Source: Diplosphaera chodatii (Eukaryota > Chlorophyta > Trebouxiophyceae > Prasiolales > Stichococcaceae). Taken from it: a stretch of DNA of 64,000 nucleotides. Numbering within the stretch: position 1 is the first letter of the stretch; every line of letters begins with the position of its first letter. This document shows, piece by piece, positions 22,591 to 44,866 of the stretch. Under the pieces are notes generated by a model. It saw only the letters and a program-made list of their open reading frames with translations. It did no database searches and was not told the DNA's origin. The translations under genes and the position numbers were made by a program. The stretch is from assembly GCA_032358165.1 (NCBI GenBank), contig JAALGY010000057.1:1550001-1614000 (forward strand). The letters run 5' to 3'.

Positions 22591-25500
22591 TCAGCAGCCC
22601 AGCGCTGCGGCTGCGCGGGCGACTTCGTGTGATTCGACGTCATTGACGAAGGCGGCATTGCCGATGCCGTCCATGAGCGGCATGCGCTGCAAGCCGTCAC
22701 GTGCCTTCGTCGTGTCCTTCAAGCCCTGCAGGCGGTAGTATAGACAAGTGGTGAGAGCAGACCAGCCAGGATGCATGCCCTTCACATAAGCTGCCCATGC
22801 CGTCGAGCCATCAGGAGAGGATCGGGCACTTATATGCATAAATAACGTTGATGACAATCAAGCAGGCAAGTGATGGTACTGTTACACGATGCAGGGACAA
22901 GATGCAAGGACGACCAAGGAGAGCATTCAGCCGGGGGGGTTGCACACCTTCATATACAGCTTTGTGTTGCAGACCTCGTGCTTCATGGGCAGCTGCAGCG
23001 CGCGCATCACCCGGAAGACGCGGTCACGCTGTGCCGGGCTGATCAGCCCCCGGTTGCAGGAGATCTGCAGCAGCACAAGCAGGCATCAGTGGCGTGTGCC
23101 GCCATCACGTAGCTCAAGCGCTACTGGTGCTGGCTGACAGTTTGTACATGCGATGCGAGCATGCAAGCAGAGCTCCTCAAGACGCACCTCTGTGGTCAGA
23201 GCCATGTCGATGTTGACGGCCTCGCCATGCAGCAGCTCGTTACCTGACGCCAGCGCCGCCATCTCAATCTGCGCACCAGACGAAGCACAGTGAGAAGAGG
23301 CTGCCGCCAAGAGGAATGCTGGCGGCCAGGCCGTCAGACGACTCCCGGCACCACCGTGACCACTCACGGACATGCCGCAGGGCACACCACACTCGGTGCT
23401 GCGGCCGCACCTCGGGCGAGAAGGTGTGGCCGTAGTCGACCAGGCGGCACAGGATGTGCTCCCACAGGTTGTACTCCAGCTCCTCCAGCATGCCCTGCAC
23501 CGACCGCCGCATCGCCTGCCCCGCGATCGGGCCCTGCACATGACACACCCTCCGTATGAACAGCTGGATCTCGTCGCCGCTCAAACATGTTGCCGCCGCT
23601 CAAGCATGTCCGAACAACATGTCCGAACACAGGCAGGCAGCATGGTCTGTCGTCACCATGACCCATGCAGCATGCCTCTGAATCATGTTGCCTCACACCC
23701 TGGCGTGCTGTTGTGCCAGTGACAGGAGTGCTGAAGCGCATGCAGCTGCTGGCGGTGCGGCGCACCTGGAACTTGCTGACCATCATGTCCTCGGCGTGCT
23801 CCTCCAGCAGCTGGAACAGCTCCTCGTCCTTGATGCACGCCATCTTGAGCATCTCTGCGGCGCCGTTGCTGATGTTGCGCTGGTCCAGCGACCGCAGGAA
23901 CGACCTGGGGAGAGCGGCGGCGGCGTCAGGTGACAACTCCTCGTGTGAATCAGCATGCATGGCTGCATCGTGGCCGAGTACCATTCTGAGGTGAGCAAGG
24001 CAAGCAAGAAACGCGGCAGGTAAATGCTGATGAAGGCACCTGTCGAGGAAGACAGCCAGCGGCGGGCAGTAGGTGCCCAGCTTGTTCTTCTTGTCCTGGA
24101 AGTTCACTGCCGTCTTGATGCCCACTGACGCATCAACTGCTGCCATCAGGGTGGTCGGCACCTGCACAAGTGCAGCCTCCTTGAGATGAGGGTACACGAA
24201 GGGCTGCTGTCAACAGTGGTCGAGCGGCCACTGTCGACTGGCCACTGCTGCTTGTGTCAGGTCAACAGTCGGCAAAAGCGACGACCAGCAGTTGTCGATC
24301 AGCAGCACCTTGATGACTGGTGTGTTGCGGCGGTACAGGTTCGCAGACAGACCGGCAACATCCAAGCACACGCCGCCACCGATGGCAATGATGGGCTCCT
24401 TCCGCCTACGCCATGCAACTCAGCAGAGTCAGCCAGCAGCTCGTATGTACGGACAGGCACTCAGCCCAAGCAGGGAATAACACCTTCATGCAGCGTGTGA
24501 TGGTCACGAACGACGTCTGATGGCCACGAACGACCGGACCTGTTCAGGCCGAACTTCTCCAGGGCGGCTGCCACCTCAAACACCAGCTCGAAGCTCTTGT
24601 TGGCCTCGTTCGTTGGCAGCGCCAGGATCTCGTACTCGAAGCCATGGTGCGTGAAGTACTGCACAGGACACCGGCATGGTCAGCCCTTGCCACATGCCGC
24701 CCAGGCCAAATGCCACCCAGGCCTGATGACAGGCACCACACGTGGACGTCATATTGACCAGAAGACACAAAGCACCACATACCTCCTCGACCTTCTCGCC
24801 ATAGAGCCTGTACACATTGTCGTCCATGATGATGAAACGCCGCTGGCCGACCTCCTGCGACGGCTGCGCAGCCAGCTGGCTGGGGAAGGAGCCGGGCACC
24901 ACCCCCCGCAGCAGGCTCTGTGTGCATTGCATGATGTCAGCCATGACATCTCTGAGCCGGCGCACGGATACGTTGCAAAATAGCAGAGATGGTCATCCTT
25001 TCTGCTGTTGAGCGTCGAATGATGCTTGTGTTGCGACAGGATGCGGCAGGAACAGCGCTCAGAGGATTCACTGACCTGGTTGTCGAGCTCCAGAAGCCCG
25101 ACGACTTCGTTGATTGTGTAACTGACAGGCTGCGCCGCCACCACCTGGAACGAACCCTGCACATGCCATACGAAATATTCGGCCAGAGCTGTACTGCTGT
25201 GAATACGTCTGGCTGCAGAGCTGGTTGTGGCACTGAGCGTGATGGCGCGTGCCGAAGCGTAAACGCCCCCAAGTGAGCACTTCGAGGCAAAAGCACTTGG
25301 TACTTTTGGGCTGCTCCAAGCATTGAAAGATGTGAGGTGCACAGCTGGTTCGAGAGGCATGGGAAGCCGGAGAGCACACCGTCTGCAAGCCGCTGATGCC
25401 GCCAGCGGTCAGGCCGTTGAGGCCAGGCGTGTTCATGAGCCCCTCAACGGGCTTCGGGATGAACGCCGGATCAGCCACCGTCGAGGGAGGAAACTTCACG

Positions 25501-25622
25501 GCCCGCTCTGGCGCCGCGATGGCCGGCGCCTCCACACCCTTCGGCGGGGAATGCTTCACGGCGGCAGAGCTGCCCAGACCAGCGCCCCCGGCTGGCCCCG
25601 GAGCCCTGTTTGCGGGTGGCAT
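22591..25622 (-). CDS. mysA: Sedoheptulose-7-phosphate cyclase (desmethyl-4-deoxygadusol / 2-epi-5-epi-valiolone synthase type)
   Basis: A member of the dehydroquinate-synthase superfamily. In mycosporine pathways it cyclises sedoheptulose 7-phosphate to desmethyl-4-deoxygadusol; EEVS relatives make 2-epi-5-epi-valiolone. The tentative start is the ATG at 25622-25620, with a Pro/Ala-rich head. Exons in order: GSFQVVAAQPVSYTINEVV; RRFIIMDDNVYRLYGEKVEE; YFTHHGFEYEILALPTNEAN; KEPIIAIGGGVCLDVAGLSA (NAD-binding GGG, near 24380); VPTTLMAAVDASVGIKTAVN then NKLGTYCPPLAVFLDR (near 24150-24050). Next come ISNGAAEMLKMA (metal-ligand Glu and Lys, near 23860), LVDYGHTFSPEV (His) and LLHGEAVNIDMALTTE (second metal His, near 23230). 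After these, ISPAQRDRVFRVMRALQLP and GIGNAAFVNDV lead to the TGA at 22593-22591. The VDASVGIKTAVN, GH-x-x-SP and NIDMA blocks separate it from true dehydroquinate synthases. DDGS versus EEVS activity needs an active-site comparison. Confidence 0.9.
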
Positions 25623-26702
25623 GAGCAACACATCACGGCCTGATCAGAACAAGCTGCAGGTGCACTGCCGTTCGGCAGCATCAGGTCAACGTTAAAGGGC
25701 AGCATAGGTGCATAGAAGCCCGATGCAGACACTGCATGCACAATTAGATAGGACCGCCGGCGGGTGTCGTGCCACCGGCACCGATCGGCCACGTCAATTA
25801 TCCGGCATGCGCCGCAAGATATGCCCAGACATGGGAGCTGGACCGCTCAGGTAAGACTTGTGGTACTACGATCCGACAGACAGGCACAGTTGCGGAGCGC
25901 GGCGCCGCACCTGGCGGGTGTGGCGCCCTGCTGCGGCCTGCCGGGCGTGCGTGTTGCAGAAGATGCCACATGCCGGGCTCCGGCGCTGGCGTGGCAGTGC
26001 AGAACGCCTCGAAGCGCCATTGCGGTCGTTGATCGACTGCGAGCGCAGCCGCCGGGGGCCGCCTCGTTGAGTGCTGTGCGATGCAAAAATCGCTCTCGCT
26101 GACGTCGAAAGTCCCGAAAGCTGAGCCTGGGTGCAGCTGGAGCGGATTTCTGGCTGGCTTGACTATGCGATCGATCACACAATCATAGAGCGGCTGAGTG
26201 CTCGGTGTGACTGCGACTATGCGGTCCGACGGCGGCCGGCAGGTTGTAGGAGGACGAATCTACTGGCAGCAGGCATGAAGCTGGCAAGCTCCCAGCACGT
26301 GTGACGCTGTGCCACGTCTGTGGCTGACTACTGTGTACAACTGATCTCCTGTGCAGACTTTGGTGCATGTTTGTCATTGAATAGCCAAGCTGCCAACAGA
26401 CGTGGCGGTGGCACGGCTGCTGCGGTGTCCGGCGCTGTCCCAGACAAGGTGCAGCATCAATTGCCGAGATTCTGCTGGTGCACGGAGTTAGGTCCATCCG
26501 CAATCGCCACTCAATCTGTACACTTGCGGGATCTTGTCTCATTTGATCGAGCCTGGCGTTCCAACATGCATCACCGGCTAGTTGAACGGCATGTCAGCAG
26601 CACTGACAAGCATCGGCGGCTGCGGCAGCACTCAGATGTTCATCATGATTAAACTTGTTTCATGTCGTGTACGCAGGCAGTCGATCATAGCAACTGATCG
26701 CA
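25623..26702. promoter_or_regulatory. Divergent promoter region shared by the mysA-like and mysB-like genes
   Basis: About 1.08 kb between two 5' ends. It presumably carries both promoters and 5' UTRs. Open frames within it (25798-26178 and others) overlap on both strands without homology. A small extra 5' exon of the cyclase gene around 25650-25750 cannot be excluded. No specific light- or UV-response element can be named from sight. Confidence 0.5.
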
Positions 26703-28279
26703 ATGGCGGCTGACCAAGCAGCCAGTGGATCGGCGCAGAACGGTGCTGCTGCGCCCGATGTCAATGCCGCCGGGCAGCCGGACACGCCCGTGGAGGTCGT
26801 CACCGCGTTGCTGGGCAGGGCGCTGGAGTCGGGCGACCACAGCTCCATGAAGCAGCTGGTGCAGCAGGCGCATGCGGTCCTCGCGGGTCTGGATCCGTAC
26901 CTGGACAGCATCTCCACGCCGCCGTCAGATGTGCGCCACATCTCCAGATCCGGCTGCTTTGTTGAAGTTCTTGCCTCGTATGTCAGCAGTGTTCGTGATA
27001 CGGACTTGCATATCTATACACAAACATACACACGCCATACAGCATGCGTCCATCTTGATTACGCCAGGTGTGCCAGGAGCTCATCAGCGCATCGCTGTCA
27101 CACAACTGGCCGGACGCGCATCAGCAGGTAAGGCTTGACAGTCAGCTCAGTCCTTGTTGGATTCTGGAACTGCTGACTCCAAAGCAGCGCACACATTGGA
27201 CGATATCCCATGTTGGCGACCGCGCAGGGCAAGACGCAGTTCCTTCAAAAGTCGGAGTGCTGCGCGGGGGCGCTGGAGGGCCGCTTCATCGCCACCCTGT
27301 GCCGGCTGACAGGCGCCAAGACGGTGCTGGAGGTGGGCATGTTCACGGGCACCACCACGCTGGCGGTGGCGCAGGCGCTGCCGGACGACGGCAAGGTGGG
27401 GTGATGGAAAGCACGCGCCAGCCGCTGGCATCGCACTGCGCTGTCCGTCGCACCTGCATGTCATCTCTGTGCACGGGTTGCTGTGGTAGGTGGTGAAGCA
27501 GCTGCTGTGGCTGCAGGTGTACGCTCTTGAGATCGAGCAGTACATGAAGGACTTTGCGCAGCCGGTGTTCGAGCAGGCAGGAGTCGACCACAAGGTGATC
27601 TTGTAGCCATCGCCACTGGCTACCCTCCCCGCATTGAGCCTTTGACTGCGCGACCCGTGTCACATCATAAATAGCAACACAAGAGTCACATTCATGCCCC
27701 AAATCATCTACAGGTGTCCGTGGTCGTGGGGCCAGCCAATGAGGGCATCGAGCAGCTGGTCAAGCAGGGCGCGCGCTTCGACCTGGCGTTCTTGGACGCT
27801 GACAAGGGCGGCTACCTCGGCTATTACAACCAGGTGGCCTGCCTGTGCGTCAGCAAGCTCACAATATCACGCAGTGCAGGCAGTCAGACCGAAACCTCTT
27901 GGGCTGTCTCCAGACGACTTTAGTCGGTGTGTGCTGGACTGACTGGTTCTGGATCCTGCCCCTCAGCTCATGGACAACAACCTCATTGTGCCGGGCGGCG
28001 CCATTGTGGCAGACAACACCCTCATGAAGGTGCAGCTGTTGTACAATATCAGCAAGACCTGTCTGCTGAGGAACCTGCCTGTTGCTTCGTGTCAGTAGAG
28101 CACCGCAGCTGCCGCCAACGCCATTCATGCATGTGCTGCAGGGCCGGCCTTACACAGACCAGAAGGATGAGCTCGGCACAGAGATCCGGAAGTTCAACGA
28201 GGCCATCCGCAATGACGACAGGGTGGAGGTCATTGCCACGCCCTTCCGTGACGGCGTCAGCATCATCATGCGCAAGTAG
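26703..28279 (+). CDS. mysB: SAM-dependent O-methyltransferase, MysB / 4-deoxygadusol type
   Basis: Class I (caffeoyl-CoA-type) O-methyltransferase. In mycosporine pathways it methylates desmethyl-4-deoxygadusol to 4-deoxygadusol. The ATG at 26703 starts an Ala-rich head, then AHAVLAGLDPYLDSISTPPS, a segment shared with the cyanobacterial pathway enzyme and not usual in ordinary CCoAOMTs. Further exons give CQELISASLSHNWPDAHQQ, FLQKSECCAGALEGRFIATL, the SAM-binding TVLEVGMFTGTTTLAVAQAL (near 27325-27385), YALEIEQYMKDFAQPVFEQA, FDLAFLDADKGGYLGYYNQ (metal-binding DADK, about 27780-27835) and NNLIVPGGAIVADNTLMKG (metal-binding DN). The end reads RVEVIATPFRDGVSIIMRK, TAG at 28277-28279. It has about six introns. 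It is divergent from the cyclase and next to a dehydrogenase on the same strand. Confidence 0.9.
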
Positions 28280-28500
28280 GGCACGCATGTCATGGGTTGC
28301 ATGCATCGAACTCCGTCTTGCCAGAGCGTCGTCCTACAGCAGTCACAGCAACGTTTCATGCATGCATGGCGACTTCAAATTGCTTGCCAATACTTGACGC
28401 TTGTGAGGGCCCTACCCCTCACCCTTGCAACGGAGGGAGGAAGGTTTTTCAGTTGGCAACACATGTGCTGATGCAGTTGATGTGTCATTACCCCAGGCAG

Positions 28501-30028
28501 ATGCAGCAGGGCGACCCAGTGAACACAGGGCTGGCTGGCAACAACATCCTGCAGCGTTTCAAGCTCAACGGGCAGACAGCACTCATTACAGGTGCTGCAT
28601 GCGCGCGGCCTGACCTCCTTGTTGTGGGTGATGGTATGCACACTCCTGCCTGATACTGCGCTCCACCTGTGCTGAGAAGGGCTGGTAAGTGCTGCAGGCG
28701 CCGGGCAGGGCATTGGTCGTGCATTTGCGCACGCATTAGGGGAGGCAGGCGCTGCCGTCGCAGTGGTCGACATCAACGGCGAGAAGGCTGAGGAGGTGGG
28801 GGGCGCTCTCCAGATGTGTACGTGCAGGCTTGGCAGGTATCAGCATCGTGTTGTCAAACGTTGACACTGGACTCAGTGGAGAGCATGCGATCTGCAGGTG
28901 CGGGGGGAGCTGGCTGCAAAGGGCATCCGCTCCATTGCGATCTCCAGCGACATCACCAAGGCAGACACCTGCAAAAGGTGCACAGGCTGGCAGACGCAGC
29001 AGCAGCAGCAGCAGGTCTGCATGTGTGCTTGTCTGCGATTGTCCATGCGTGGTGACACAACATGAGATGCGCCACATCCGCCTCCTCCTGCAGCATGGTG
29101 GAGCGGGTGGTGAGCGAGCTTGGCGGCCTGGACATCGCGATCAACAATGCGGGCGTGAACCGCAACCATGCGGCGGAGGAGTGCTCCGAGGAGGACTGGG
29201 ACCTGACCTTCAACCTCAACACGCGCGCGGTGTTCCTGTGCTGCCAGGCCGAGGGCAACCACATGCTCAAGCAGGGTGAGCCCAACCTTGCAGTCGGGTT
29301 CGTCTGGGCTACTCTGACGATGTCATGATGTGCCAATGCCTTGGGCAGCAAAGCACGCTGCTGCTATCAGATGTGCTGGCATGCTGCTGTTTTTGCCTCG
29401 ATGTCAGTGAACATTGCATGTGGCTGATACCGCAGGCCACGGCAAGATCATCAACACAGCCAGCATGGCCAGCCTGTTGGTGCCGCACCCCCAGAAGCAG
29501 ATTGCATACAACGCCTCGAAGTCAGCAGTTGTAAAGATGACACAGACGCTGGGTGAGCGTGCCTGCACCATTGCTCTACCTATGTTGTGGTGTCATCTGA
29601 TGCTTGACGTCAAGAGCATAGGCTGCTGTGTCTTCAGCAGAACCATGTCATATGCAGGATGTGAGTGGGCAGACAGAGGTGTGCGCGTCAACTGCATCTC
29701 GCCCGGTATCGTCAACACAGAGCTTATCCAGGTGCGCCGCCGACAATGCCGCATTGCAAGCCCGTGTTTGCGACCCATACCTGTTGGATAGCACAGCAGA
29801 TGCTGTGAAGACGCTGATGATGTAGTGGCTGACATGAGCTCACTGACATCGCAGAAGTCGAAGGACTTGCAGCCGCTGGTGTCCGAGTGGATCGACCACC
29901 AGATACCCGCGAAGAAGCTGGCAGAGGTCACAGACCTGCAGACCGCCATCGTGTTCATGGCGTCATCAGCATCAGATTACATGGTTGGACATAATCTGGT
30001 GCTGGAGGGCGGTCAGAGTCTTTGGTAG
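28501..30028 (+). CDS. Short-chain dehydrogenase/reductase (classical SDR), cluster gene 3
   Basis: NAD(P)-dependent oxidoreductase; substrate unknown. The ATG at 28501 begins MQQGDPVNTGLAGNNILQRF. The first splice joins ALIT-GAGQGIGRAFAHAL, completing the cofactor motif TGxxxGxG. The acidic Asp in AVAVVDINGEKAEEV suggests NAD(H) preference. NNAG is at about 29144-29155, the catalytic Ser in IINTASMAS near 29455, and YxxxK in IAYNASKSAVVKM near 29505-29525. The substrate loop reads RVNCISPGIVNTELI. The C-terminal exon (about 29860-30028) ends DYMVGHNLVLEGGQSLW, TAG 30026-30028. It resembles polyol/sugar and xylulose/sorbose-type reductases. It starts 222 bp after the mysB-like gene on the same strand and converges with the mysC-like gene (235-bp gap). 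A role in oxidising or reducing the cyclohexenone product is inference. Confidence 0.88.
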
Positions 30029-30262: not shown

Positions 30263-33200
30263 TCAGTCACCACCCAGCTCGACGACCTTGCCGCTGCAGA
30301 GGTCGATCTTGATCCAGGGCTTGCCGCTGGCCACAATGCGCATCAGCTGCACGGGAATCTGCAGGAAGTGCAGCACGAAGAACGGCAGCGGGTCCGCCTC
30401 ATCTGCCACTGCGTCTGTCCCGTTGAAGATAGTGGCCAGCCGCCTCGCCGTGCTCTGGTAGAGCGCTCCAATGCTACGAGCCTGCATGAAGTGCATCACG
30501 TTGCCCAACTACCTCAGGGCTCATGACCAGATGAACCACGCATAACAGCACACTGCAGCATGGATGAGCAGCCGGCCTCGGGATGCTGAGCAGCAACCAC
30601 CCCACCTTTAGCAAGTCGCTGAACAGAAGTCCTCCAAGCTCGTTGTACACCCAGTGCACTGGACGTGCTGTGGGGTGCGGCTGCAGCGGCGCTACACAGG
30701 CATCAATCACGGCCTGCGGCACACAGGCAGGATGTTCACGCCACATGGCTCTGGAGGCCAGATGTACAGCCACCGCATCACAATGCTGCGAGTTCAATCT
30801 GAGTACAAGCGCGGCTGCAACCTGAGGCTTGAAGAACGCCACTGGCAACCGCTCGTCATTGTAGAAGGCGAGGAGATTGGTGCTGGTCCGAGGATTGCCT
30901 GTGTGTTTGCGTGAACACTCAGATAACCGACAGTCACAGCACTGAGTGCACTCACAGCTCGTGCGAAACACACAGCTGCAGCAATGCTGTAACGTCGGCT
31001 GGACCCAAGGAGGAGTTCACCGAGATGACATGTGGCAGCTGAGCACGTTGAGAGACTCACACTCGATGCAGTAGAGGACGTTGTCAGCCTCGTTGAGCAT
31101 GAAGTCGAAGCAGATCTGTCCAGACATGGGGTGTGCCGTGCAGCACTTCTGCACCCACTTCAAGATCTGCAGACACGCAGCAAGAACATGATACCTCACA
31201 GTGCTCGAAGTACAGTGGTGCTTCACCAATCCGTGACCCGTAGCTTCCACAAGAGAGTTCATGAGTCCCACCTCTGGACTGCCGACGTGCGCATAGTTGA
31301 GGCAGGACAGCTCCGCCACATTATCAGCATGCGCGACGACGTTGCCTTCGTGCACGATGGAGTACGATGCGTACTCTGGCCCGCGGATGAAATGCTGCAG
31401 CAGCCACGGCTGGGTGTCCGAGATCTGGAGCCCGGCAATGTACCGCTCCAACACCTGCAGGTGGTGTGGCATATGTCAGTAAGACCTTGCGTCTGCACAA
31501 AGTCTTCCCAGCGGGAAACGCCCGTCACACCAATCGTCCATCTCATACTGGCCGTCCTGGTCTGCTTATGCAGGTCCAGCTTAACGCATACAGCTTTGCT
31601 CAAGCCAATGCACATGCGTGCATCCATGCAAACATTTGTTGCAACACCTGGATTAAATCAGTGAACAGCTAGACAGCCAGATGCAGGCCAATGTCTGAGG
31701 CACCAAACCAACCCATGAACCTCCACACCAGCTGACCAGGCGGCTTCGATGCAGTCTGCATGCAGGGAGCACCTTCTGGTCGCATGGCAGCGTGAACAGG
31801 TCAGCGCGTGCAATCGCCTGGTAGCCGACGCTCTTCAGCAGGTACGTCTTGCCCTGGAATACCTCTGGCCTGCACATCGTACACAACACAACATGACTTA
31901 GTGTGCGACTGAACTGCTGCACTGGAGCCCCATTCTCTTGCACCTCTTCCTCTTGTCTGTTTGCAACTGCGATATCCACCAGAGCTGGTGACTCTGATGT
32001 GTCTCCCAGGAAGCAGCTCTTACACGCAAGGGTGCCAGAGAAGGAGGTCACTTTTGGTTCAGCTCCAGCAGCTCGGCCTTGGAGGTGATTGGGAACACAT
32101 GTGGTGAGGAGAGCCCATGCTTTTCGCAGAACTTCTGGAACTTGATCTTGTCGTTCAGGAAGGCCACCTACAGTAGCCTGGGAGCGGGTGTCGATCACAA
32201 GGTAGACATGCGGCAGCGATACACATCAGCGCACAGCGATTCCCGCATGAGTTAGGTGGTGCACATGACTGAGCCTCAGCATGTTGACGTACGCACATCT
32301 CTCGCGTTGAGTGTGCAGTTGTGGCACCCCGGCGGCATGAGCTCAGCGGCCAGTGCTTCGTACACGCTGTACTGGGCGATGGACACTGGCACAAACAGCG
32401 ACACGTGCTCCCGGGCGCCAATCCTCGCCATCGCCTGCATGCACCCAGGACTACGTGGGTGATTCGCAGCCCGCATGTGTGGGCTGCCTCCTGAGGTGAA
32501 GTCACCGTGAGCATGCAGCACAAGGAAGATGTGCTACCTTCAGATAGTCCAGAGGCCTTTCGTTGGGGCTTGGCACACTGTAGAACTTTGCCACGCTGTT
32601 TGAAAAGCGAGTGCAGCTGGACCAATTCCTGCGTGTGGGCATGCTGCAGGCTGTGAGTTGTTTCCAGCACACAGATGCTGTTGGGTGCAGCTCTGGGCGT
32701 ACAATGCGGGTAGTTGGTGGCAGGTAGCTGATAAGTTGACGCACTTGCTGCTGTCCACCAGGACCACACGCCAGCCGGCACGGTGCAGGTGCCTGCTCAC
32801 ATGCAGCGCCTTTGTCTTGTTGCCCCCTGCACAGGCAGTCGGCAGCGTCCTTAACGACACCTTCGCATATGACATGCCGCTGATGGAGCCTGAAAACTTG
32901 TAAATGATGCCTTGCCACCAGGTATGGCAATGAGCAACGCCGCAGATCCTGCCAGCGCACCGCTGACGATGGCCGTGCCGCGGGCCTTGCTGCCGTGGCC
33001 GTCCATGGTTGCATGCTTGGTGCTGCGGTTACCGCTTGCCACCGACTTTGATACAAACAGCCACGAGAGCAGTGCACGAGCTGCCGCGGCGGCCAGCGTC
33101 ACCGGCAACACGACGTAATATAAGAGACCCAGCAGCGCAAGTGCCTTGATGCGCGAGATCAGCTTCGTGCTCGCAGACCAGGCAGTGCTCTGCTGGCTGA

Positions 33201-33524
33201 GCGGCGGCTTGTTGCGGATTGGGTAGTCCTGTTTGAGGGCGTCCAGCACATCCTGCAAAGATTGGCGTGTCGTGTGCGCATCAGCGGCGGTTGACATGAC
33301 GACATTGCATGCCAGCAGGCGCATGATTCTTTCGGGGACTGGGAGTATGCCATACTGAGCATGTACTTTCATCACATGGTCGTCATCTTCGAAATATGCT
33401 GTCATAACAGCCACAAAGTACTCGCCTCGTTGTCCGCTGCCGGTACCAGCGCCACAATGCGCTTGATCAGGCGTGCATCAGCCACCGCCTCATCGCCGCT
33501 CGGCTCGCCATTCAGGGCGTCCAT
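30263..33524 (-). CDS. mysC: ATP-grasp ligase, MysC (mycosporine-glycine synthetase) type
   Basis: In cyanobacteria this enzyme joins glycine to 4-deoxygadusol using ATP, giving mycosporine-glycine. The proposed start is the ATG at 33524-33522. Exon 1 ends at 33426; a GC-AG intron (33425-33253) then gives ADNE-DVLDALKQDYP. An alternative start is the ATG at 33297. A membrane anchor follows (ALALLGLLYYVVLPVTLAAA), as in cyanobacterial MysC. Then come IPGGNKTKALHVSRHLHRAG, RVVLVDSSK, SVAKFYSVPSPNERPLDYLK, REHVSLFVPVSIAQYSVYEA, FLNDKIKFQKFCEKHGLSSP (near 32150), GKTYLLKSVGYQAIARADLF (ATP-grasp Lys), PWLLQHFIRGPEYASYSIVH, GQICFDFMLNEADNVLYCIE, CNPRTSTNLLAFYND (metal/phosphate Asn near 30880) and VHWVYNELGGLLF. 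The end is GKPWIKIDLCSGKVVELGGD, TGA 30265-30263. The C-terminus is a signature of this family. About ten exons. Confidence 0.9.
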
Positions 33525-34146
33525 GCCGTGCCAATGATGCTGCTGATCACCCCTTTGACACCAGCTAAGTGAAACTCAAGTGCAATGTGCGGCCGCACAG
33601 CAGTGACCTTGTTGACAGCAAGGCTGAAGCTCCCAAGCACGCAATGACATTCAGACTTCTCTGTGCCTGAAGATATCCAAACAAGGCGTCAATGTCGGAT
33701 CGCCCAGCAGTACCACGCAACCATCAACTCTGAATCCCGCAGGATATCTGCGTTGTTTCCGACAAAAGCTGCGGGGTTCCGGTGGACTGATGATGTTGCA
33801 TTGTGTCAGCATCGAACAGCACGTGCCGGCTGTGCGCTGGCCAGAAGCTGCATGTGTCAAGATAAGTGATTGGTACCGTGGCACCAGCATTGCTGGCCGC
33901 AGGGGTGCCTACACATGGGCATGGAACACATGGTTGTGGACATGCATGCGATACCGTTGCTGAACCCGCAGCACTGATGTCATTGTCTGCGTTGCTAGAC
34001 ATCATGCTCGACTCTGCAGCAGTGGAGTTTGAGGCTAGCCGCTTATGTAAGGATGAACCCCATTGATCAGAGAGGCATTCCTCTGCCTGGCATGACCAAA
34101 GGAATGCCAACAGTCTGAGCACAATATGGACTTCAAATAGCCGTCT
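33525..34146. other. Intergenic region upstream of the mysC-like gene
   Basis: About 620 bp containing the promoter and 5' UTR of the mysC-like gene and the 3' UTR of the second SDR, both on the minus strand. Open frames on both strands here lack features. Confidence 0.45.
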
Positions 34147-35513
34147 TCACCATTCTAACCGCTCTCCAGGCTTTGCAGCGTCCCAATACTGGCCACTGTT
34201 CTCCATGGTCACCCCCTGCAGCACACGCCAGATGCCATCTGCCGACGCCTCTGGCGTGATTGAGTTGTCTCGAATCTTCTCGGGTGCAACCCCCCGCTGC
34301 GTGCGCAACGTCTCCAGCATGTCGGTGAAAACGACGCCCGGATGTATGATGGCCACCGGTATCTGCAGCAGCAAGATGCAAATCATTGGATGGCAGAAGG
34401 ATGTGAGCATTCCAGATGCATCTGTGGTCAGTCAACTCCATGACAGCCTCGAGTGTCCCAGTAGTGTCTGTGGCACCATGCCATAACGTCTCTACGTAGT
34501 GCTGACCTGGCTCTCTGACAGGTCCTTTGCCATGGCCCCGCCTGCCATGTTGAGTGCCGATTTGGACATGCGGTAACCATACTGCAGGAGTATCACACCA
34601 TTGAACAGCTGCTCTAGACTCTGAATGTATAGCTAGCCACTCACACTGTACGTGCAACCATACAGAGACGTCATTGGCCACCATGGATGCTACTGAACGC
34701 GCTGAAGCTGTGCTCACCATCTCACCGCCCGTCATACCAACAGCTGCAATGGATCCCATCTTGCTTGCAATGAGCGCGATCTGCATGTGTTGAGCACATA
34801 AGTCAGTCCCACTAACATCACTGCCACCCCATAGAGCGCTGGCTATGCATGCACATCTGCAGCTGCTGCGACACATGTTCCGCAAGCGCACCTTGCTGCC
34901 TGAATGCAGTCGTGGCAGCAGCGCCTGCACTACGAGCACTGGCCCGAGCGCATTGACCTCGAACTGCCGCATGATGATGTCTCGCGTCGCCGTCTTCAGC
35001 GTATCAACCTCCTGAATGCCGGCTGCCACCACCAGCAAGTCGATGGTCGGGTGCCTGATGGCGTCCTGCAACTGCGATGGGTCGCTCTTGGCGATGTCAT
35101 ACCCTGCAGAGATGTCACCACTTGCGTCTTGAAATGCACAAGAGCACAATGGCAATAGCCCTGGGGAGCTCTGAGCAGCAACCGCTGTTGATTTCGATGG
35201 CAACAAGTGCGATCTGGCACCGGCACTGTCCACTCACCGTTGATGCACTCGACATGGGCTGCCTCGAGCTCGCTGCTGGGGCTGCGCACAGTGCCAATTA
35301 CCGTGTACCCCTCCTGCTTGAGCCTCTTACACACCTGCAGTACACAGGGCATGGGAATCAGCGCCTGCATGTATCAGTTGCTGCTGTCTGCTGGCCACTA
35401 CCGTAATGACGGCTACCATGTCTGCACAAGCACATTGTGTGCATACCGCCAGGCCTACGCCCTTGCTGGCGCCTACCACCACCGCAACCCTACTGTCCGA
35501 CCCCATCCTGCAT
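34147..35513 (-). CDS. Short-chain dehydrogenase/reductase, cluster gene 5
   Basis: NADP-type SDR with unknown substrate. The ATG at 35513-35511 reads MGSDSRVAVVVGASKGVGLA and splices to VCKRLKQEGYTVIGTVRSPS. This gives the cofactor motif GASKGVG and an Arg in place of the acidic residue after strand 2, which favours NADP(H). Later exons give TIDLLVVAAGIQEVDTLKTA (NNAG is replaced by VAAG), QFEVNALGPVLVVQALLPRL, KIALIASKMGSIA (catalytic Ser) and YGYRMSKSALNMAGGAMAKD with YxxxK at about 34565-34580. Then IPVAIIHPGVVFTDMLETLR, and the end QYWDAAKPGERLEW, TGA 34149-34147. It resembles C-factor / sniffer-like SDRs. It is divergent from the aldo/keto reductase, sharing a 523-bp upstream region. 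Confidence 0.85.
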
Positions 35514-36036
35514 AGACGGCGTACACGAAGTTTATGATCGCATCCACCACTGTTGCCATTCGACCATGTGCTGGCAGTGTGCAGGGAAGTCCATGCTGTG
35601 AAAACGCAATCTGAATGAAAACGAGCAGTCGGATGCTGGTCAGAGTTGCCGGTGACAACCTTTGCAGATTTGCAAGCGTTCGCATAGGTGATGCCATACA
35701 GGTTTGTGCAACCCACCTGTGTGTGTGCCCAGATTCTAGTTTGGGCCTTGCCGGTTGCGATCACCGATGGGCGGTCAGAAGCAGTGCATATAATGTCAAC
35801 ATATGTGCCGCAGGTGGTTGCGATGCAAGCAAGTCATGAGTGGATCACTGCACATGCAATCTCTTGCAGTGACAATGCACGTGTGCAGGTGGCGCCACGC
35901 AGCTCGCTGCTTTGGAAGTCTGCAAAACCGAACGAAGCGTCCTTCGCTGGTACTTGATCAACCTCAAATTTCAGCAGGTATCCGGAGATTGCCGCAGTTG
36001 AGCACTCGTCGAGGTACAGGGTCTGCTCCGTGTTGC
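35514..36036. promoter_or_regulatory. Divergent promoter region, SDR 2 / aldo-keto reductase
   Basis: 523 bp between two start codons. No protein-like frame, TATA box or known motif is convincing, but by position it must hold at least one promoter. Confidence 0.45.
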
Positions 36037-38244
36037 ATGATGGCTGCGCCAAGTATTCCGCATCGGGAGTTCGGCGCCACTGGAGCCCAAGTCAGCGTCG
36101 TCGGCATGGGATGCAGCCCCTTTGGTCATGCATACGGGGTGAATGCTGCCCGCTGTGGTCGTTGCACATGCCATCTGCCATGCTGTTGGTGTGCCCCTGC
36201 AATGGGTTCCCCCTGCTCATGTGGCCTTGTAATATCACCGCCTGCTGTTGCAGACACCTGACGAGGATGCCGCGCTGAAAGCCATCAAGCTGGCGTTTGA
36301 CAACGGTGTCAACTTTTTCGATGTCGCGCCGTTCTATGCAGCCGGCAAGGCTGAAGAGGTCCGAGTAGACTGCTTGACATGTTTCTGCTGAGCTTTCCAG
36401 GAATGTGGACGCCTGCCTGCATCATTGTGTACCTGAAGTCCGGGTCCAATGAGCAGGCTGTTGCCTCAGTCCATGCACTGCGCCATCGGTGGCGTCTGTC
36501 TCGAAACGATCAGGATTTGTGACTTGGCATGGTGCCATGCGCCTGCGCAGCTGGTGGGCAAGGGGCTGGCGCAGCTGCCGCGGGACCAGATCTACGTGGC
36601 CACCAAGGTGGGCAAGTACAAGGCGGGCGAGCCGGAGGACTTCTCCGGGGAGCGGGTGACGCGCAGCGTGCACGAGTCACTGGAGCGGCTCGGTAGGTCT
36701 GCCACACAGCTCGAGCGCAGGCTCTGCATGCACACCGTGCAACTTGGCCTTCACATGATGCATCACTTGACAAGTTTGTCGAGATTCAATTGCAATGGCA
36801 GTTGTTACAGCGAGATCTCTATGTCTGTGCAGGCCTGAAGTACATTGACTTGATACACTGCCATGACATTGAGAGCGCAAAGGACATGAAGCAGGTTCGT
36901 GCTTTTCTGAGTTGCGTACGGAGTCGCATACGCTCAGTGCGTGCCTCAGTGGTACATTGCTCCGTGCACAGACCCCAACGCCCCTCATCCCTGAGTGCGG
37001 GGTGGTCCTGTGCAGATCGTGACCGAGACACTGCCGGCGCTCCAGAAGCTGAAGGAGCAGGGCCTGGTGCGGGCCATTGGCATCACGGGCCTGCCGCTGG
37101 ACATCTACCCCTACGTCCTCGACAAGTGGGCCCCGCAAGCCGATGTCGCCCTTTCCAGTTGGCACCATGGCACATGCCGCTCGATATCCATGCATGGCCA
37201 GGTCCATCACCACCAGCTGCGTCTGACAGCGTCTGCACAGCAGCCACTTGCTGACGTGCGTGCCCTGGCTGGCGCAGGGTGCCGGTGGGCACCGTGGACG
37301 CGGTGCTGTCGTACTGCCACAACAACCTGGCGGACAACACGCTGCAGGGGCTGCTGCCGTACCTGCAGGAGAAGAAGGTGGCCGTCATCAGCGCCTCCTT
37401 CTCCTCCATGGGCCTGCTCACCCAGAAGGTGCGCTTCCCGCAACTGCTTCCCATCAAAGCCCGATCTGCGGCACATCCCTGTCCGCTGTTTGCTCGTGGG
37501 GGACGAAGGGCGCCTCCTATATTAGATCACTGGTTCGTGGATCCTTGCACATGCCCTCATGTTGTGGGTCAAGCGGCATCATAGCTGACCGGTGAGCGAT
37601 GTGAGCAGGACCCGCCTTCGTGGCACCCCGCCTCCGACGAGGTGAAGGCGGCAGCGATCAAGTCGAAGGAGCTGTGCGCCTCCAAGGGCACCGACCTCGC
37701 GCGCATCGCTATCAAGCACTGGCTGAAGTGGGTGACCCTGGCATGCAAAGATGATGAGGACGCAGTCCAGTGTCCATATAATTTCCAAAGATACAAGTAT
37801 ACCCGTGCGAGCTGTGTGGTGGCTGCTGTGACCTGTTGAGCCTGTCCCTTTGCGGTCGTTACAGGACACCAGGCGTGAACGTGTTCCTAATGGGTATGGC
37901 AACACCCGCAGAGGTGAACTTGATATTTGTGCCTGCAGCACGCATGTCACATATCATGCTTGAGACACTCTGCACACGCGTGTCGGCTGTGCAGATGCTG
38001 CAGCTGTGAAACGTCGTTGAACGACTGTAACCATTCAAGATGCGATGCGATAAAGGTTCAATATCTAAATGATTTCTCGATGCTGTAGGTGGAGGAAGAC
38101 CTTAAGGTCGTGCGGCAAACGCTGGGGCTGATACCGGACGAGACTGCAGATGCGGAGGCAGCGGTGCTGAAGGAGGTGCAGCAGATCTTCGAGCCTGTGA
38201 AGGATCAGACTTGGAAGACAGGCCGCGACAACAACAGGACGTAA
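36037..38244 (+). CDS. Aldo/keto reductase, L-galactose dehydrogenase type
   Basis: L-galactose dehydrogenase makes L-galactono-1,4-lactone with NAD in the plant ascorbate pathway. The ATG ATG at 36037 gives MMAAPSIPHREFGATGAQVS and VVGMGCSPFGHAYG. Later exons give the AKR active site: Asp and Tyr in NFFDVAPFYAAGKAEEV (36310-36360), Lys in QIYVATKVGKYKAGEPEDFS (36585-36645) and His in LIHCHDIESAKDMKQ (36855-36895). These are followed by ETLPALQKLKEQGLVRAIGI, TGLPLDIYPYVLDK, GTVDAVLSYCHNNLADNTLQ, VAVISASFSSMGLLTQK and PSWHPASDEVKAAAIKSKEL. The C-terminal exon ends QIFEPVKDQTWKTGRDNNRT, TAA 38242-38244. Order and spacing match plant GalDH closely. The final codons overlap a good GT donor (GTAAGC), so a short extra exon is possible. 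It could be a normal ascorbate gene sitting by chance in the cluster. Confidence 0.87.
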
Positions 38245-38440
38245 GCAACAACAGAGTATTTCTCTGGCTATCGTATTGCGATGCAGTAGACGAGATACGG
38301 TACATTGTTGTGTCGGCATTCGGCACTGGTGGTGGAGGTTTATCAGTCACAAAATGTCACACAATGATGGCGGCTGCACAATGTAGCTCAAGCAGCAACT
38401 TCAAATTGACCATATCAGTGCACAACGTTGCACAAGTGTG

Positions 38441-41304
38441 TCACAGCAGTGCAGCTGCTTCGTTGTCTTCGCGCTCCTGTGTCGGCAGGTATCTAAGCAA
38501 CACTGCAAAGTATGCGACTCCGAAGAAGCTAAGGATTGCCATGATGAGCATCGGCATCGTGAAGCCACCGAACTGCGTCTTGGCCCAACCTATGAGCCAT
38601 GGTCCGACCACACCTGTGCGCCATCAACTTCCAGCAGTGTGCACATGTGCGCTTTAGGTGAAGCATGCGCATTGATGGCAGGATGGCTGTGTCAACATGG
38701 CTGCGGGCCGCTATTGCAGGCTCACCACCGTAGCTGGAAACACAATTCGCCACAGCCCAGCCGCTGGAGAGTGCGGCACCATGCAAGTAGGTGGCTGGAT
38801 ACCTGCACAGCACAATAGCAAACATAGGGCTCGCAGTGCAAACGCCAGCATTGCCTGTGCCACCAGCACCGCGTGCCCACACCCATGTCAGCTTTACCCA
38901 CATCGGCACAGCATCCTTTCAGATCAAAGAAGATGCATGCATGCCACAGAGCATCAGCGCAAGCAGACTATTGAGTGGCAGAGGCAAGCGGGACGGGAGC
39001 CACCGTCAACAGACTCACCCCCACTCCAGGGGGTTGGACGCCTGGCTGGTGGCGCTGAGCGTCAGCGCAAAGAAAGCAAGCAGCGGGTGGTGTGCCAGCG
39101 TGAAAGCCAGCATGACCAGGCCGACTGTGCACACCGCCAGGGGCGTCAGCAGGTGCCAGTACATGTCACCTGCGAGCACATGGCGCCTTTAGGACCATGT
39201 ACAGGGTGCCAGCCCAAGGTGCTCGGCGAATGACACCAACATGTCCTTGGCGCTGGCGTGTTGCCTGCCAATGAGGCATGCGCCCACCTGTGCGCTTGGC
39301 GTGCGCTGTGTTCAAATATGTGGAGAGGGCTGCCCAGCTGAATGGCACAGCTGACAGCAGCACCGCCATCGCCCCTTTAAGTCGAAAATGTAACGATCAG
39401 ACTCATGTATAGGCCTGCACTGCGAGTATCAGATGAGGCAGCATCTGCAGCAGCACCTGCGCAGCAATGTCTATGGCTGCACACCTCGGCTGGCCTGGTC
39501 TGGCTCGCTCTTGCTGGGAACACGGCTGCCATTTCGAATTGCATAGACAATGAGCGGCGTCCAATACATGGCGCCATATCGCATGATGCCTGCAGGGGTG
39601 ACGGGGTAGTCATCGGTCGAGAGCATACACACGCTGCTGCAGGTTCATCCCATGCATGCACACAGCAAGCTCCCTCAGCAGCTGCGCACCTGCCCAGCCG
39701 CTGCCAAAGCCCTGCGCCCACACCTTCCAGCATGTGATGCCGTACCAGGTGCTCTGCTCGCCGCCATCCCGCGACATGTCTTCCTGCGTGTCCAGGGCGG
39801 AAACTGACGCTCAGTCAGGATGCACACGCCTCCGCAGCCACCATTCCAGCAGCAGAGCTGCAAGTGTTAAGCAAGAGAGCATGGATGCCACTTGTTGCAT
39901 CGCACACGCACCTTGTGGGCCTTGACGCGCTGGTGGACAAACTCCCGCTCGGGCTGCGTCAGGAAGCTGGCCTCCAGCGGCGTGGGCGACAGCGTGGCCC
40001 ACACCCAGATGCCCAGGAAGATCGTGGGAATGCCCTCCAACAAAAAGAGCCACTGCCAGCCCCTGAGCCCCAGGAAGCCGTCTGCAGCACACGGCAATGG
40101 CTCATGAGAAGCCATCATAGCACAACCCGCACAACATATTTCTGCCGCTTACACCCCCCTACACCCACTTAGATGCCAGCTGCTGGGGCTGGGGGTGACA
40201 GGCGTATGAATGCGCATGCAGGGGCAGCGCACCTGTCAGCAGCAGGGCTGTTGCAATGGGCGCCCCTGCAACCTGCCAGCACACATCGACAGTGTGGCGA
40301 AAACAGCAAGCGACTCGACCCTGGACGAAACGTAGTGTGCACGATTGAGCACAATGGCACGTAGGCTGAGCCTGGCTGTACCTGTGCCAGCGGCTGCGCT
40401 GCAGCTATGTAGCTCCATGCCACAGCCAGGTCGGGCCCGCTGGCGTAGAACAGCGTCATGTGCGCCCACATGCTGCGGCGGCAAGGCTTCACACGGTCAG
40501 CCGCCGTGTGCCAAGAGTGCGTATGACAGTCGTGATACGGCAGGATGACGACTGTCGCGACGCATGCTTACCAGGGGAATGCGCCTGCTTCCATAAAGCC
40601 CAGCAGAAAGCGGAGCCCGTACAGGTGCAGCGGGTTGCTGGACAGCCCCGCAAAGCTGGTGGCCACCAGGCCCCACCCGACCATCAGGATGCCAATGCCG
40701 CGGGGCAAGCCTATGCGCTGCGCCGTCAGCTGGATGGGCACCTGCAGGTATGTTGCTCATATCCGTGTGACAGCAGCAGAAAGGAACCCTTACGGGCGTG
40801 TGCATGGCGACATGCAGAACTGAGCCATAACATAAGCTGGCTGCTGACACACAGAGTAGTTGTCCTCGGCTGGCTTGCAGCTTCAGGCAAACCCCACCTG
40901 AAAAACGGCATATGATACAAAGAATACACCAGCTGCAGCGCCGTAGACCGAGTCAGAGTAGCCCAAGTCCTGGTTCAATTGCACTGACGCATATGCCTGC
41001 AGGTCAGCAAGCGCGGTCAGCAGCTTCAAGTAGGCTGCGCTTGCATGTGCATCATGAATGTGGGAGCTGGTTCAATCTTTGCTGGTGCTCACCAGGTTTG
41101 CACGGTCCATATGGTTCAGTAGTGTCTGCACAGCAACCAGAAGCCCTTAGCACAGTGCGCGTCCACATTGACTGCAGACCGTGGGGCTTATGCGTAAGTT
41201 TGCAGGTTCCTGTGTCTCACCAGAAGACAGAACTTGACCATGATGTGCATGTTGAGCTTCCGCAGGACGGCGTCAGGCTGAATGGTACTGCGCGTGTCCT
41301 GCAT
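38441..41304 (-). CDS. MFS transporter, anion:cation symporter (ACS) / allantoate permease-like
   Basis: A 12-helix transporter of organic anions in relatives. The ATG at 41304-41302 reads MQDTRSTIQPDAVLRKLNMH, then TLLNHMDRANL, the ACS signature at the first helix (L-N-x-x-D-R-A-N). Next exons give YASVQLNQDLGYSDSVYGAA, VPIQLTAQRIGLPRGIGILM, GLRFLLGFMEAGAFPW (helix 4 motif, near 40590), a loop, and GWQWLFLLEGIPTIFLGIWV with FLTQPEREFVHQRVKAHK (39920-40060). The second half holds several hydrophobic exons between 39740 and 38650. The last exon is GPWLIGWAKTQFGGFTMPML, then LIMAILSFFGVAYFAVLL and a polar tail, TGA 38443-38441. An additional 5' exon (41537-41361, Ser/Arg-rich) is possible but does not join in frame by a clear splice. 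Placement suggests export or vacuolar loading of the cluster product (inference). Confidence 0.8.
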
Positions 41305-42077
41305 GATGTAAAAAAGACAGGCAATGGTCCACGTGAGTGAATGTGGTGGCTCACATCTCTCTACTTGATGCGCCGTGCTGAAAAGGGGTAGGCACCACCG
41401 GTTGTGGGTCGCACCGGGGCAGCACTGGACCGGCGCCGGGGCCGCGCTGGTGAGCCCGTGGGCGAGTCCGCTGTCGCCACATCGTCCAGCGTCTTGCTGT
41501 CCGTCCTGCCCAGGTTCTCCAGGTCCTGGCCCCGCATGCTGCGGGCTCCTGCATGTTCAACTGGAGGCGCGCTGAGACTTCTGGACGCTGCCTTTCTTGA
41601 GGGTGCGCGCCATGGGGAGCAAATGGAAACACCGTGCGCGGAAGGACAGGATGCGACTGTCAGCAAACCAAAGGGACTCACTTGCAAACGCAGAGCCCCC
41701 TCGCCCGACAGTCATGAGCCCTGCCTCGCCCTGTTGCAAAAGCTCATTTGAGCTGCAAATGCACCTCACATGTCTCACATCAGCCGCACAGCTATCGCTG
41801 ATGGCTGCAACATGCGCGAAGCACTCACGACGGGGCTACAGACCAGACGTGCGTTTGCGTTTCTTGCCCTGCCCCACATGCGCTTTGCGTCATCTGCACC
41901 TGGCATCACGTGCGGCGACGAAGATCTCGGCTGATGAGAAGGCACACCGAAGTCGTGGCAGCACATCATAGGTGCGGCGCCAATCGCGACGCTGAAAGCT
42001 GCACATGTGCTTACGATAGTCTTGCGTTTCAGCATCAGACTTGCTATTTGACAGTCGCTACAGCTAAGGCACTCACC
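41305..42077. promoter_or_regulatory. Divergent promoter region, MFS transporter / O-methyltransferase
   Basis: 773 bp between start codons. On the minus strand 41537-41361 encodes MRGQDLENLGRTDSKTLDDV and an Arg/Ser/Pro-rich stretch. It could be an upstream transporter exon or a 5' UTR. The rest shows no gene. Confidence 0.45.
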
Positions 42078-44866
42078 ATGGCCAGCGCAAACGGTGCAGA
42101 GAATGGCACCGCCAACGGCACAACTTGGAGCAGCCCCCAGCAGGACCTCGCCGCCACAGGTGGCCGCCGTTACGCTAGCTTTCATCTTTCTGCACATCTG
42201 CTTATTGCTATGAGAGCTCCGGGATCCAGCTGATCATTGGGGCTGTTGCAGTCGACGTCACAGCCGACAACTCCGTTGATCGCGAGGCAGCCTATGCAAC
42301 CTTGAGGCTGGGCACTCAACGTGTGTATCATCATACCTGCAGCAAAAGTGTTCCAGGCGATCCAGGGCCACTGGCTGTCAGCATGTCTCGGCGTCATCAT
42401 GAAGCTCAAGGTCCCAGGTGTGATGTATGCGAGTGCTGCATCAATATTCAGCCACGATGCGACAACCAAGCGTCTCAGAATGACCCTCACACTGTCTGGC
42501 TGCAAGCGCAGAGATCCTCACAGAAGCCGGCGAGGCACTGTCATTTGAGCAGGTATGCATCGCTCGACGTCCTTGGCGAAGTCTTCAACGTCAGATGTCG
42601 TCAGTTCACGACAACCTGACCCAGTGGTGTCGTTGTACATGCAGCTGGCAGACAAGGCAGGCGTGACAGATGGTGGTCACGACCACTTCTACAAGGTGCC
42701 GCTCTGCATGTGCACTTGGTGCTCCAGAATGGAGACCACACACCACTGCTCAAATATGTACTTTCACGAGGCAAGTCACATACCAAAAGCAATTTGATGC
42801 TGTGCAGGTGCTGCGGATGCTGGCGCAGTTCGAGATGCTGGACGAGGGCGAGGGCCGCACATTCTCCCCCAGCACCGCCACCAAGCTGCTGGTCCGCGGC
42901 CAGGAGGCCACCCTGGGCCACTTTGTGGTGCGCCCACAACGAACCCATGCTTGGACGACTCGCGACAGCGTGTGCACCAGCATTCCGCATACAGCTGCTG
43001 CTGGTTCTCTTCTGCTCATGCATGATGTATGCCGGCGAAGGGTTCACTGCACATGTCCTCTGCCATGACCCACAGGACCACCAGATCAACGAGCCCAAGT
43101 GGGACGCGTGGAAGGTGCTCCCAGAGGCAGTGCGCACCGGGCAGGTCGCCTTCGCCCTTGCCCACGGCGGCCTCGACATGCACGAGGTGCGCATGCATGC
43201 TGTCACACACTGACACACTCACACGCGCTGAGAGACGGTTTCGAGCGTGAATGGTGCTCGTCGCCCTGACAAATTGGCTGCTGACTGTCCATTGGCCCTC
43301 TATTTGCTGGTCCTGCTGACGTCTTTGCAACTGCTTGGGTTGGCGCCTGCAGTACGACGAGGTGGAGGGCCACGAGAAGTTTGCGGACGACTTCCAGCAG
43401 GCGATGACGTACTACACGAAGCAGAGCCTCATGGGCGGCGACACCGACCTGCAGGACGCCTACGACTGGCGCTCCGCCAAGGTGCGCACACCAACACCCT
43501 TCAGTCGTGTCCTGAAACCATGCCGTCTTGCATGTCAGGGGGTGTTACATATGGCGGTATGCTTTCGCGTCACCCAAAGGTGGCGAACCTTCGGACCCTC
43601 GCCCCACTCTTCAATCGTTCCTCAGAGTGGCATCTGCTCAGAGCCATGGAGTGTATCATTGCTGATGTCCGGCGATCTCGCGGTTGGCAGGTGATTATGG
43701 ATGTGGGCGGCGGCCGTGGGGAGCTGCTGGCGCGCTGCATGCTGTACGCGGGCCACGAGAGCCGCGGCGTCCTGTTCGACCGCCCCTGGGTGCTGGACAG
43801 GTACGGCGAGGACCGCCAGGCTTACCTGTACACGTGAATGCCATCAGCTGCACAGGCATGAACAGTCGGATATGCTTGGTTAGGTTTGTAAACTGGGGTC
43901 CCAGTGAGTACCTCCTCTTGCTGCAGTGTGGACTTCAAGCAGACGTTCGAGTCGAAGGGCGTGCTGGACGCCAAGCAGCGGCTGTCACGGGTGTCGGGTG
44001 ATGTGCGGGAGCCCTTCCCCGATGCGGTGCGCACCTGCGCTCTTCTACACATTCATGATGCCCTCCACACTGTCTGCTAACCGCCGTGGGCTGCTCAATG
44101 TCGGACAGCTGATGCAGCAGAGAGGCCACCAGGCCACCCCATCTTTGCTGGACCTCTGCTTGCACCATGTGTGTGCCTGGTCTACCTTGTTATGCCGTGC
44201 AGTCTGGCTGTGCACATGGTCATGGCGTGCAATGTGTCGTGTTTTGCAGGTCAAGGACGCCAAGGTTGACACGCTGGTGATGAAGCACTTCCTGTCAGGG
44301 TTCTCAGACAACGACGCAAAGCTCATTCTCAAGCACTGCAAGGAGGTGCTGCCCAAGGAGGCCAACATCCTGCTGCTCCAGGTGCGATCGTTGTTGTGAC
44401 CATCACTAGGCATGGTGTCGTGCACGGCATGCCTGTATCTTTGTACATCATGTCATATACCGCTTGGCCGTATGGCAAAAGTCTTCAGCTGTTGAGGTTG
44501 TTCACCTGCCACTTGACCGAGCGTGTGTGCCTGTAGACCATCGTGCCAGAGGCAGGCGACCGCTCGCACAACACCTGCAAGGACGGCGTTGCACCAGGTA
44601 CACAGTTGTCTTCTTTCTGGTCACAATACTTAGTATGACCATAAGGGCATTTGGGCGGTGCTCCTTGTCAGCAGCAGGAGTGTCAAACCAACGCTGTGCC
44701 ACATGCAGGCCTGTTTGCAATCGAGATTCTGGCACAGTGCCCCGGCGGAGGCTGGCGCACGCTGTCAGAGTGGAAGGCCCTGTTCGCAACTGCTGGCTAC
44801 AGCCTGAAGGACAGCAAGCCAGTTGGCTCGAGCATGGACATGCTCATCTGGCAGCAGGACAGCTGA
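42078..44866 (+). CDS. COMT-type (class II) SAM O-methyltransferase, cluster gene 8
   Basis: Plant caffeate/acetylserotonin-type O-methyltransferase; substrate unknown. The ATG at 42078 gives MASANGAENGTANGTTWSSP. The N-terminal dimerisation domain follows: VFQAIQGHWLSACLGVIMKL, LTEAGEALSFEQ, LADKAGVTDGGHDHFYKVLR and MLAQFEMLDEGEGRTFSPST. Then EATLGHFVV, EPKWDAWKVLPEAVRTGQVA, YDEVEGHEKFADDFQQAMTY and the SAM motif VIMDVGGGRGELLARCML (43690-43745). Later exons give GVLFDRPWVLDR, SGDVREPFPDAV, DTLVMKHFLSGFSDNDAKLI with the catalytic-base His (about 44285) and LKHCKEVLPKEANILLLQ. The end is TIVPEAGDRSHNTCKDG, GGGWRTLSEWKALFATAGYS and SSMDMLIWQQDS, TGA 44864-44866. About ten exons. It is unrelated to the class I mysB-like enzyme, so the cluster holds two separate methylation activities. 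Confidence 0.85.

Follow-up and report, generated by a model that had tools for sequence, protein, structure and literature searches.

A candidate seven-gene cluster for a gadusol-based sunscreen, present in two diverged collinear copies

In Klebsormidium nitens, Chromochloris zofingiensis and Coccomyxa subellipsoidea, Foflonker and Blaby-Haas (2020, PMC7826186) described a putative mycosporine-like amino acid (MAA) neighbourhood with clustered genes for an EEVS cyclase, a methyltransferase-oxidoreductase (MT-Ox), an ATP-grasp ligase and an O-methyltransferase (OMT). EEVS and MT-Ox genes had been noted side by side in Coccomyxa subellipsoidea earlier (Osborn 2015, PMC4426668), in a paper that also reports gadusol as the in vitro product of the zebrafish EEVS and MT-Ox. 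By the account in PMC7826186, the enzymes behind the green-algal sunscreens prasiolin and klebsormidin were untested at that time; among the matches listed in our literature searches there was no later enzyme test and no other report of the four-gene cluster in green algae, although this is not proof of absence. Here we analyse a stretch of 64,000 nucleotides (the window; C49:1550001-1614000 of an 85.6-Mb assembly in 55 contigs), which carries at positions 22591 to 44866 a block that is probably a seven-gene metabolic cluster for an ultraviolet (UV)-absorbing amino-acid conjugate of gadusol. A preliminary description of this DNA had proposed an eight-gene clustered sunscreen-type pathway in a green-algal nucleus, where genes are rarely clustered by pathway; our analysis supports a clustered pathway of this kind, in what is likely a green-algal nucleus, and the rarity may hold generally, but the same type of cluster is already published (PMC7826186). 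New leads come from its additional genes, the second copy, a promoter motif that recurs across the block and a change, seen across the clade, in the active site of the cyclase.

Like the published green-algal cluster (PMC7826186), the block physically groups an EEVS, a predicted MT-Ox double-domain protein, an ATP-grasp related to MysC and an OMT, and its second methyltransferase (OMT2) is, as is described for the OMT of that cluster, related to OMTs near cyanobacterial mys genes. As far as its text description goes, that cluster differs in two respects: here a second short-chain dehydrogenase/reductase (SDR2), an aldo-keto reductase (AKR) and a major facilitator superfamily (MFS) carrier separate the ATP-grasp from the OMT, and the block occurs in two diverged collinear copies. 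With the vertebrate gadusol pathway (PMC4426668) it shares a homologous cyclase, one fish sequence falling in the same clade with a support of 100, and the predicted union of a methyltransferase and an NAD-dependent oxidoreductase in one protein; in contrast to that pathway, it also includes an ATP-grasp and a further methyltransferase, and its cyclase is without a histidine that is kept in the fish protein. A sedoheptulose-7-phosphate cyclase, a methyltransferase and a related ATP-grasp also stand together in the cyanobacterial mysA-mysB-mysC(-mysD) clusters, but the window versions of the first two fall in other clades, and no match was found to PF07478, the MysD-type family that only some of those clusters carry. 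The DDGS-OMT-ATPG cluster of Phaffia rhodozyma is likewise a eukaryotic set of clustered mycosporine genes, with a cyclase named DDGS (PMC10057719), whereas the window combines an EEVS-type cyclase with an oxidoreductase domain. In Coccomyxa viridis, the ATP-grasp g6471 (P0005) and the cyclase g6478 (P0029) are recorded with the same longest contig, which would place about six genes between them if the numbering follows position. Weighing the other way, the EEVS and ATP-grasp matches of Elliptochloris are on contigs of unlike size, suggesting that clustering may not be universal.

Genes were modelled with a purpose-written comparative gene finder, for which the collinear contig C46 served as informant. 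Of 19 models within or overlapping the window, seven cover 22591 to 44866, and their exact outer limits are those given in the preliminary description. In order, they encode the EEVS-like cyclase (minus strand), an OMT joined to an SDR (plus), the ATP-grasp (minus), SDR2 (minus), the AKR (plus), the MFS carrier (minus) and OMT2 (plus), spanning 22.3 kb on C49. With 6 to 16 exons per model, the many introns already suspected were borne out. A Pfam scan, to which the first OMT and first SDR were submitted as separate proteins, identified a cyclase of the DHQ-synthase family, a Methyltransf_3 OMT, two SDRs, an AKR, an MFS carrier and a Methyltransf_2 OMT, in agreement with the enzyme families first assigned, and in NCBIfam no family exceeded its cut-off among the matches listed for the seven cluster proteins scanned (MFS carrier not included). 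A second, collinear copy of all seven genes is under purifying selection: C46 and C49 are collinear over ~114 kb (75-81% identity in aligned blocks >2 kb), counterparts of all seven genes were modelled on C46, and each of the seven pairs has a ratio of nonsynonymous to synonymous divergence (dN/dS) of 0.042-0.078 at a dS of 0.17-0.37. A search of the assembly for the cyclase family gave four matches, a pair on each of C49 and C46 with matching spacing, and the OMT2 and ATP-grasp matches listed in the 85.6-Mb assembly (best candidates scored) were all on the C49 or C46 block. Their confinement to both blocks, together with the seven counterparts on C46, suggests more than chance. For the enzymes of green-algal sunscreens, the locus offers a complete set of genes with introns, in two copies that have diverged.

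The cyclase (22591..26020, minus strand) is predicted at 494 aa from 12 exons. Its 5' exon (25911-26020) is weak, an ATG at 25622 being the alternative start, and residues 61-494 align gap-free and at 95% with P0019, a continuous 434-aa open reading frame (ORF) on a single 2151-bp contig. The best PDB matches were 4P53 (ValA, an EEVS; 338 bits) and 5TPR (225 bits), which we take to be the DDGS structure from Anabaena. In a tree of 52 sequences rooted on the DHQ synthase of the same assembly (20 of the listed eukaryote-type matches, 14 bacterial sequences, 15 of 80 cyanobacterial cyclases and both copies), the window cyclase fell within a eukaryotic-type clade of 22 sequences that includes fish, chytrid, Saitoella and green-algal proteins (support 100). 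Its nearest neighbours were from Elliptochloris and Coccomyxa (support 100), in a green-algal group with proteins from Chromochloris, Klebsormidium and Coccomyxa viridis, whereas the 15 cyanobacterial DDGS sequences formed a separate clade (support 100). At the 16 alignment columns that separate the EEVS from the DDGS sequences compared, the window is EEVS-type in 11, DDGS-type in two (115 and 240) and neither in three (312, 320 and 372). On the tree, columns and PDB scores, we reject the MysA/DDGS identity originally proposed for this protein. Two nodes weigh against an EEVS assignment: support for the green-algal group is just 60, and that for the joint bacterial and eukaryotic EEVS group (36 sequences) is 28. 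At 64% identity to the window cyclase, P0037 is Cz11g05100, the EEVS query protein of PMC7826186. The Myrmecia bisecta cyclase record (P0036) has an extra Nudix domain, from either a fused gene or an annotation join.

Adjacent and divergent to the cyclase is the predicted MT-Ox fusion (26703..30028, plus strand; 556 aa), with a Methyltransf_3 domain at 26703-28275 and an SDR oxidoreductase domain at 28497-30028, linked across a predicted intron (28276..28496, plus strand) with the same sequence features in C46. We placed its start manually at 26703, replacing the weak first exon of the model. The gene finder joined the OMT and first SDR into one model in both copies, and four OMT matches carry both families together (P0139, P0140, P0142 from Coccomyxa elongata and P0156), two of which align across the linker (P0142 at 70% with six gaps, P0156 at 68% with three). 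In a tree of 21 methyltransferase domains, for which fused proteins were trimmed to their methyltransferase part, the window domain grouped with the OMT-SDR fusions (support 100) and away from Nostoc punctiforme P0248 and its kin (MysB), and on this basis we reject the identification of the first OMT as MysB. Most likely, a single gene encodes the OMT and the first SDR as an MT-Ox fusion, as is seen in relatives, which lowers the count of eight genes to seven. A scan of genome contigs with the single sequence of the first OMT found no relative; a further scan was made with an alignment of ten OMTs of cyanobacterial type. In the methyltransferase tree, P0243, labelled as a methyltransferase of the fern Adiantum, grouped with a fungal (Meira) sequence at 100 and is probably contamination.

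The MysC-related ATP-grasp ligase (30263..33524, minus strand; 535 aa, 12 exons, hydrophobic N-terminal segment) had no match in Pfam or in a PDB search. When 80 mysB loci of cyanobacteria (the top 80 of 256, most of them from Nostocales) were searched by tblastn, 75 gave a match to it, the best eight at 35-37% identity over ~410 residues, and in a tree of 25 sequences (14 of 18 matches, nine MysC and both copies, rooted on two fungal matches) the algal ATP-grasps joined cyanobacterial MysC with a support of 98. The kinship with MysC recognised in the preliminary description therefore stands; the MysA-MysB-MysC route to mycosporine-glycine that it proposed is not supported, as cyclase and OMT are not of the cyanobacterial clades. 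P0001 (491 aa, on a single 2060-bp contig) aligns with the ATP-grasp from residue 1 to residue 490 at 87% and with a single gap. P0001 and P0019 are both uninterrupted ORFs on short contigs, align to the spliced models without introns and are probably transcripts. By eye, the hydrophobic stretch of the ATP-grasp (residues ~68-105) also occurs in the Nostoc MysC from locus L029, and may possibly anchor the protein to a membrane. OMT2 (42078..44866, plus strand; 399 aa, 13 exons) is a Methyltransf_2 methyltransferase with homologues <=7 kb from mysB in four of the 80 loci.

Together, this type of cluster predicts a gadusol core and not mycosporine-glycine. In the first step, the EEVS-type cyclase would form 2-epi-5-epi-valiolone from sedoheptulose 7-phosphate; the MT-Ox fusion would then yield gadusol by NAD+ oxidation and O-methylation, as with the zebrafish enzyme; the ATP-grasp would couple one amino acid to gadusol; and OMT2 would supply an additional methyl, plausibly the N-methyl of the klebsormidins. 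An exon-wise six-frame search of the genome at E<=0.001 gave no match to PF07478 (NRPS-type ligases were not searched), while all 14 control genomes were positive, suggesting a single amino acid per molecule and a predicted absorption at ~322-324 nm. Known chemistry fits this prediction: klebsormidins absorb at 324 nm and contain N-methylserine, and gadusol was detected as a degradation product in Klebsormidium (both according to PMC7118736); prasiolin is a 324-nm MAA, reported in PMC5947255, as such or as a prasiolin-like compound, from every investigated member of the Prasiola clade; and an N-methylated 'algasporine-glycine' is mentioned in PMC13312787. Weighing against it, PMC5947255 also reports prasiolin as absent from all tested Trebouxiophyceae outside the Prasiola clade. 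If the prediction is right, the block indicates gadusol, rather than 4-deoxygadusol, as the intermediate to seek, and offers OMT2 as a candidate for the extra methyl group along with three further candidate genes.

These three are candidate tailoring and transport steps, situated between the core genes in both copies. SDR2 (34147..35506, minus strand; 240 aa) was recognised by Pfam and by a gene model in both copies. The AKR (36040..38244, plus strand; 330 aa) was assigned by Pfam, with L-galactose dehydrogenase as its best PDB match (314 bits); a paralogue on contigs C15 and C47 scores higher (368 bits) against L-galactose dehydrogenases, so that the cluster AKR looks like a diverged duplicate, and a role for it as the housekeeping ascorbate enzyme is rejected in view of the closer paralogue. 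The MFS carrier (38441..42006, minus strand; 530 aa; Pfam) has a doubtful first exon (41965-42006, negative score), and both of its PDB matches, at 45-46 bits, are D-galactonate transporter entries.

Four 5' regions (347-1097 bp) serve the seven genes, three of them between divergent pairs, and each holds the G-box CACGTG once in both copies, a four-of-four comparison that is not length-matched. On C49 the motifs lie between EEVS and MT-Ox (26296..26301), upstream of the ATP-grasp (33820..33825), between SDR2 and AKR (35878..35883) and between MFS and OMT2 (41907..41912); the aligned position is conserved in C46 in three of the four, the C46 motif between SDR2 and AKR lying elsewhere in the region. 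Within 500-bp promoters, CACGTG occurs in 5/7 cluster models on C49 and 6/7 on C46, compared with 1/24 and 4/24 of other models. It was one of four motifs examined at first. Among 2080 six-mers, 26 were common to the four C49 regions, where 32 would be expected, CACGTG being the least expected of the 26, as well as of the six found in all four regions of both copies; it thus ranks first without reaching significance across the 2080, which tells against a regulatory reading, and no conserved 8-mer was common to >=3 cluster promoters. The shared G-boxes may be taken as a lead for light or UV co-regulation, not as proof of it, and the four of them offer a clear regulatory test.

How firmly the gadusol route can be held depends on several other explanations. 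That the block encodes a cyanobacterial-type MysA, MysB and MysC, leading through 4-deoxygadusol to mycosporine-glycine, seems to us very improbable: cyclase, MT-Ox and ATP-grasp have tblastn matches in 80, 80 and 75 of the 80 mysB loci, the ATP-grasp shares the C-terminus of its MysC relatives and two of the 16 separating columns are DDGS-type, but the cyclase lies outside the DDGS clade with 11 EEVS-type columns, and the methyltransferase domain lies outside the MysB clade and adjoins an oxidoreductase domain. A second explanation keeps the pathway and questions the fusion, with methyltransferase and SDR either separate or joined under regulation, splicing giving MT-Ox and intron retention the methyltransferase alone. 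At the donor GTAGGG there is an overlapping in-frame TAG (28277-28279), identical in C46, where translation of an unspliced message would stop, yielding the methyltransferase alone; the splice sites are weak, with donor and acceptor at the 15th and 19th percentiles among 361 predicted introns; the joined model beats separate ones by just ~3 log units; and the Ulva match P0141 has methyltransferase families only. All of this counts against a single MT-Ox protein, yet the four fused homologues, the two alignments that cross the linker and the joining of both halves by the gene finder in each copy leave separate or regulated proteins an unlikely, if appreciable, prospect, and we retain the single fused gene.

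It is quite possible, though we lean the other way, that cooperation is limited to the four genes already published (EEVS, MT-Ox, ATP-grasp and OMT2), with SDR2, AKR and MFS as bystanders. The cluster section of PMC7826186 mentions none of these three, and none has a homologue in the 80 cyanobacterial mysB loci, which also weighs against a seven-gene pathway; on the other hand, core genes flank them in both copies, the diverged AKR has a more canonical paralogue at another site, and a G-box is present in both the SDR2/AKR and the MFS/OMT2 regions. The first product could also differ. Of three sites from the 14-site active-site fingerprint of ValA, Leu267, Asp281 and His360 (residue numbers from Kean 2014), the first two match in the window cyclase and the third does not: residue 458 (exon 22591-22725), equated with His360 through the PDB-match alignment with an inferred offset of six, is Ala, leaving the EEVS fingerprint incomplete, a further point against the assignment. 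Among 120 listed of 2005 matches, classed by rank and name as 38 eukaryote-type and 82 bacterial-type (many are unnamed), this residue is His in 82/82 bacterial-type sequences and in the sole fish protein, and non-His in 37/37 algal/fungal-type ones, in which sites 312 and 320 likewise deviate. This clade-wide change puts the identity of the first cyclase product in question, and an algal/fungal EEVS-like clade of changed specificity might make another C7 cyclitol; we consider this rather unlikely, however, as sites 362, 376 and 400 are EEVS-like in 120/120 and the gadusol degradation product of Klebsormidium fits the EEVS/MT-Ox route. More speculatively, and with only a slim chance of being right as a whole, the seven genes might form a UV regulon of four promoters under one G-box-binding factor, in which the His-less cyclase makes a different product, the resulting sunscreen core is new to the fish and cyanobacterial routes, and the recruited L-galactose-dehydrogenase duplicate finishes it.

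Beyond the gadusol cluster, two collinear diverged sets were seen in the assembly, the window against C46:1310001-1440000 and C15:430001-440000 against C47:2424001-2434000, with ~75-81% nucleotide identity in long blocks and dS mostly 0.2-0.35. These paired regions could reflect allodiploidy, an ancient duplication or the co-assembly of two species. To the left of the block, the model at 14384-21860 has a stop after its first codon and is unreliable; by eye, it seemingly merges several genes, with papain-like, DnaJ-like and membrane-protein parts. In each copy, the DHQ synthase gene (C49:1507378-1509714 and C46:1324893-1327189) is separated from the EEVS gene by ~62-63 kb.

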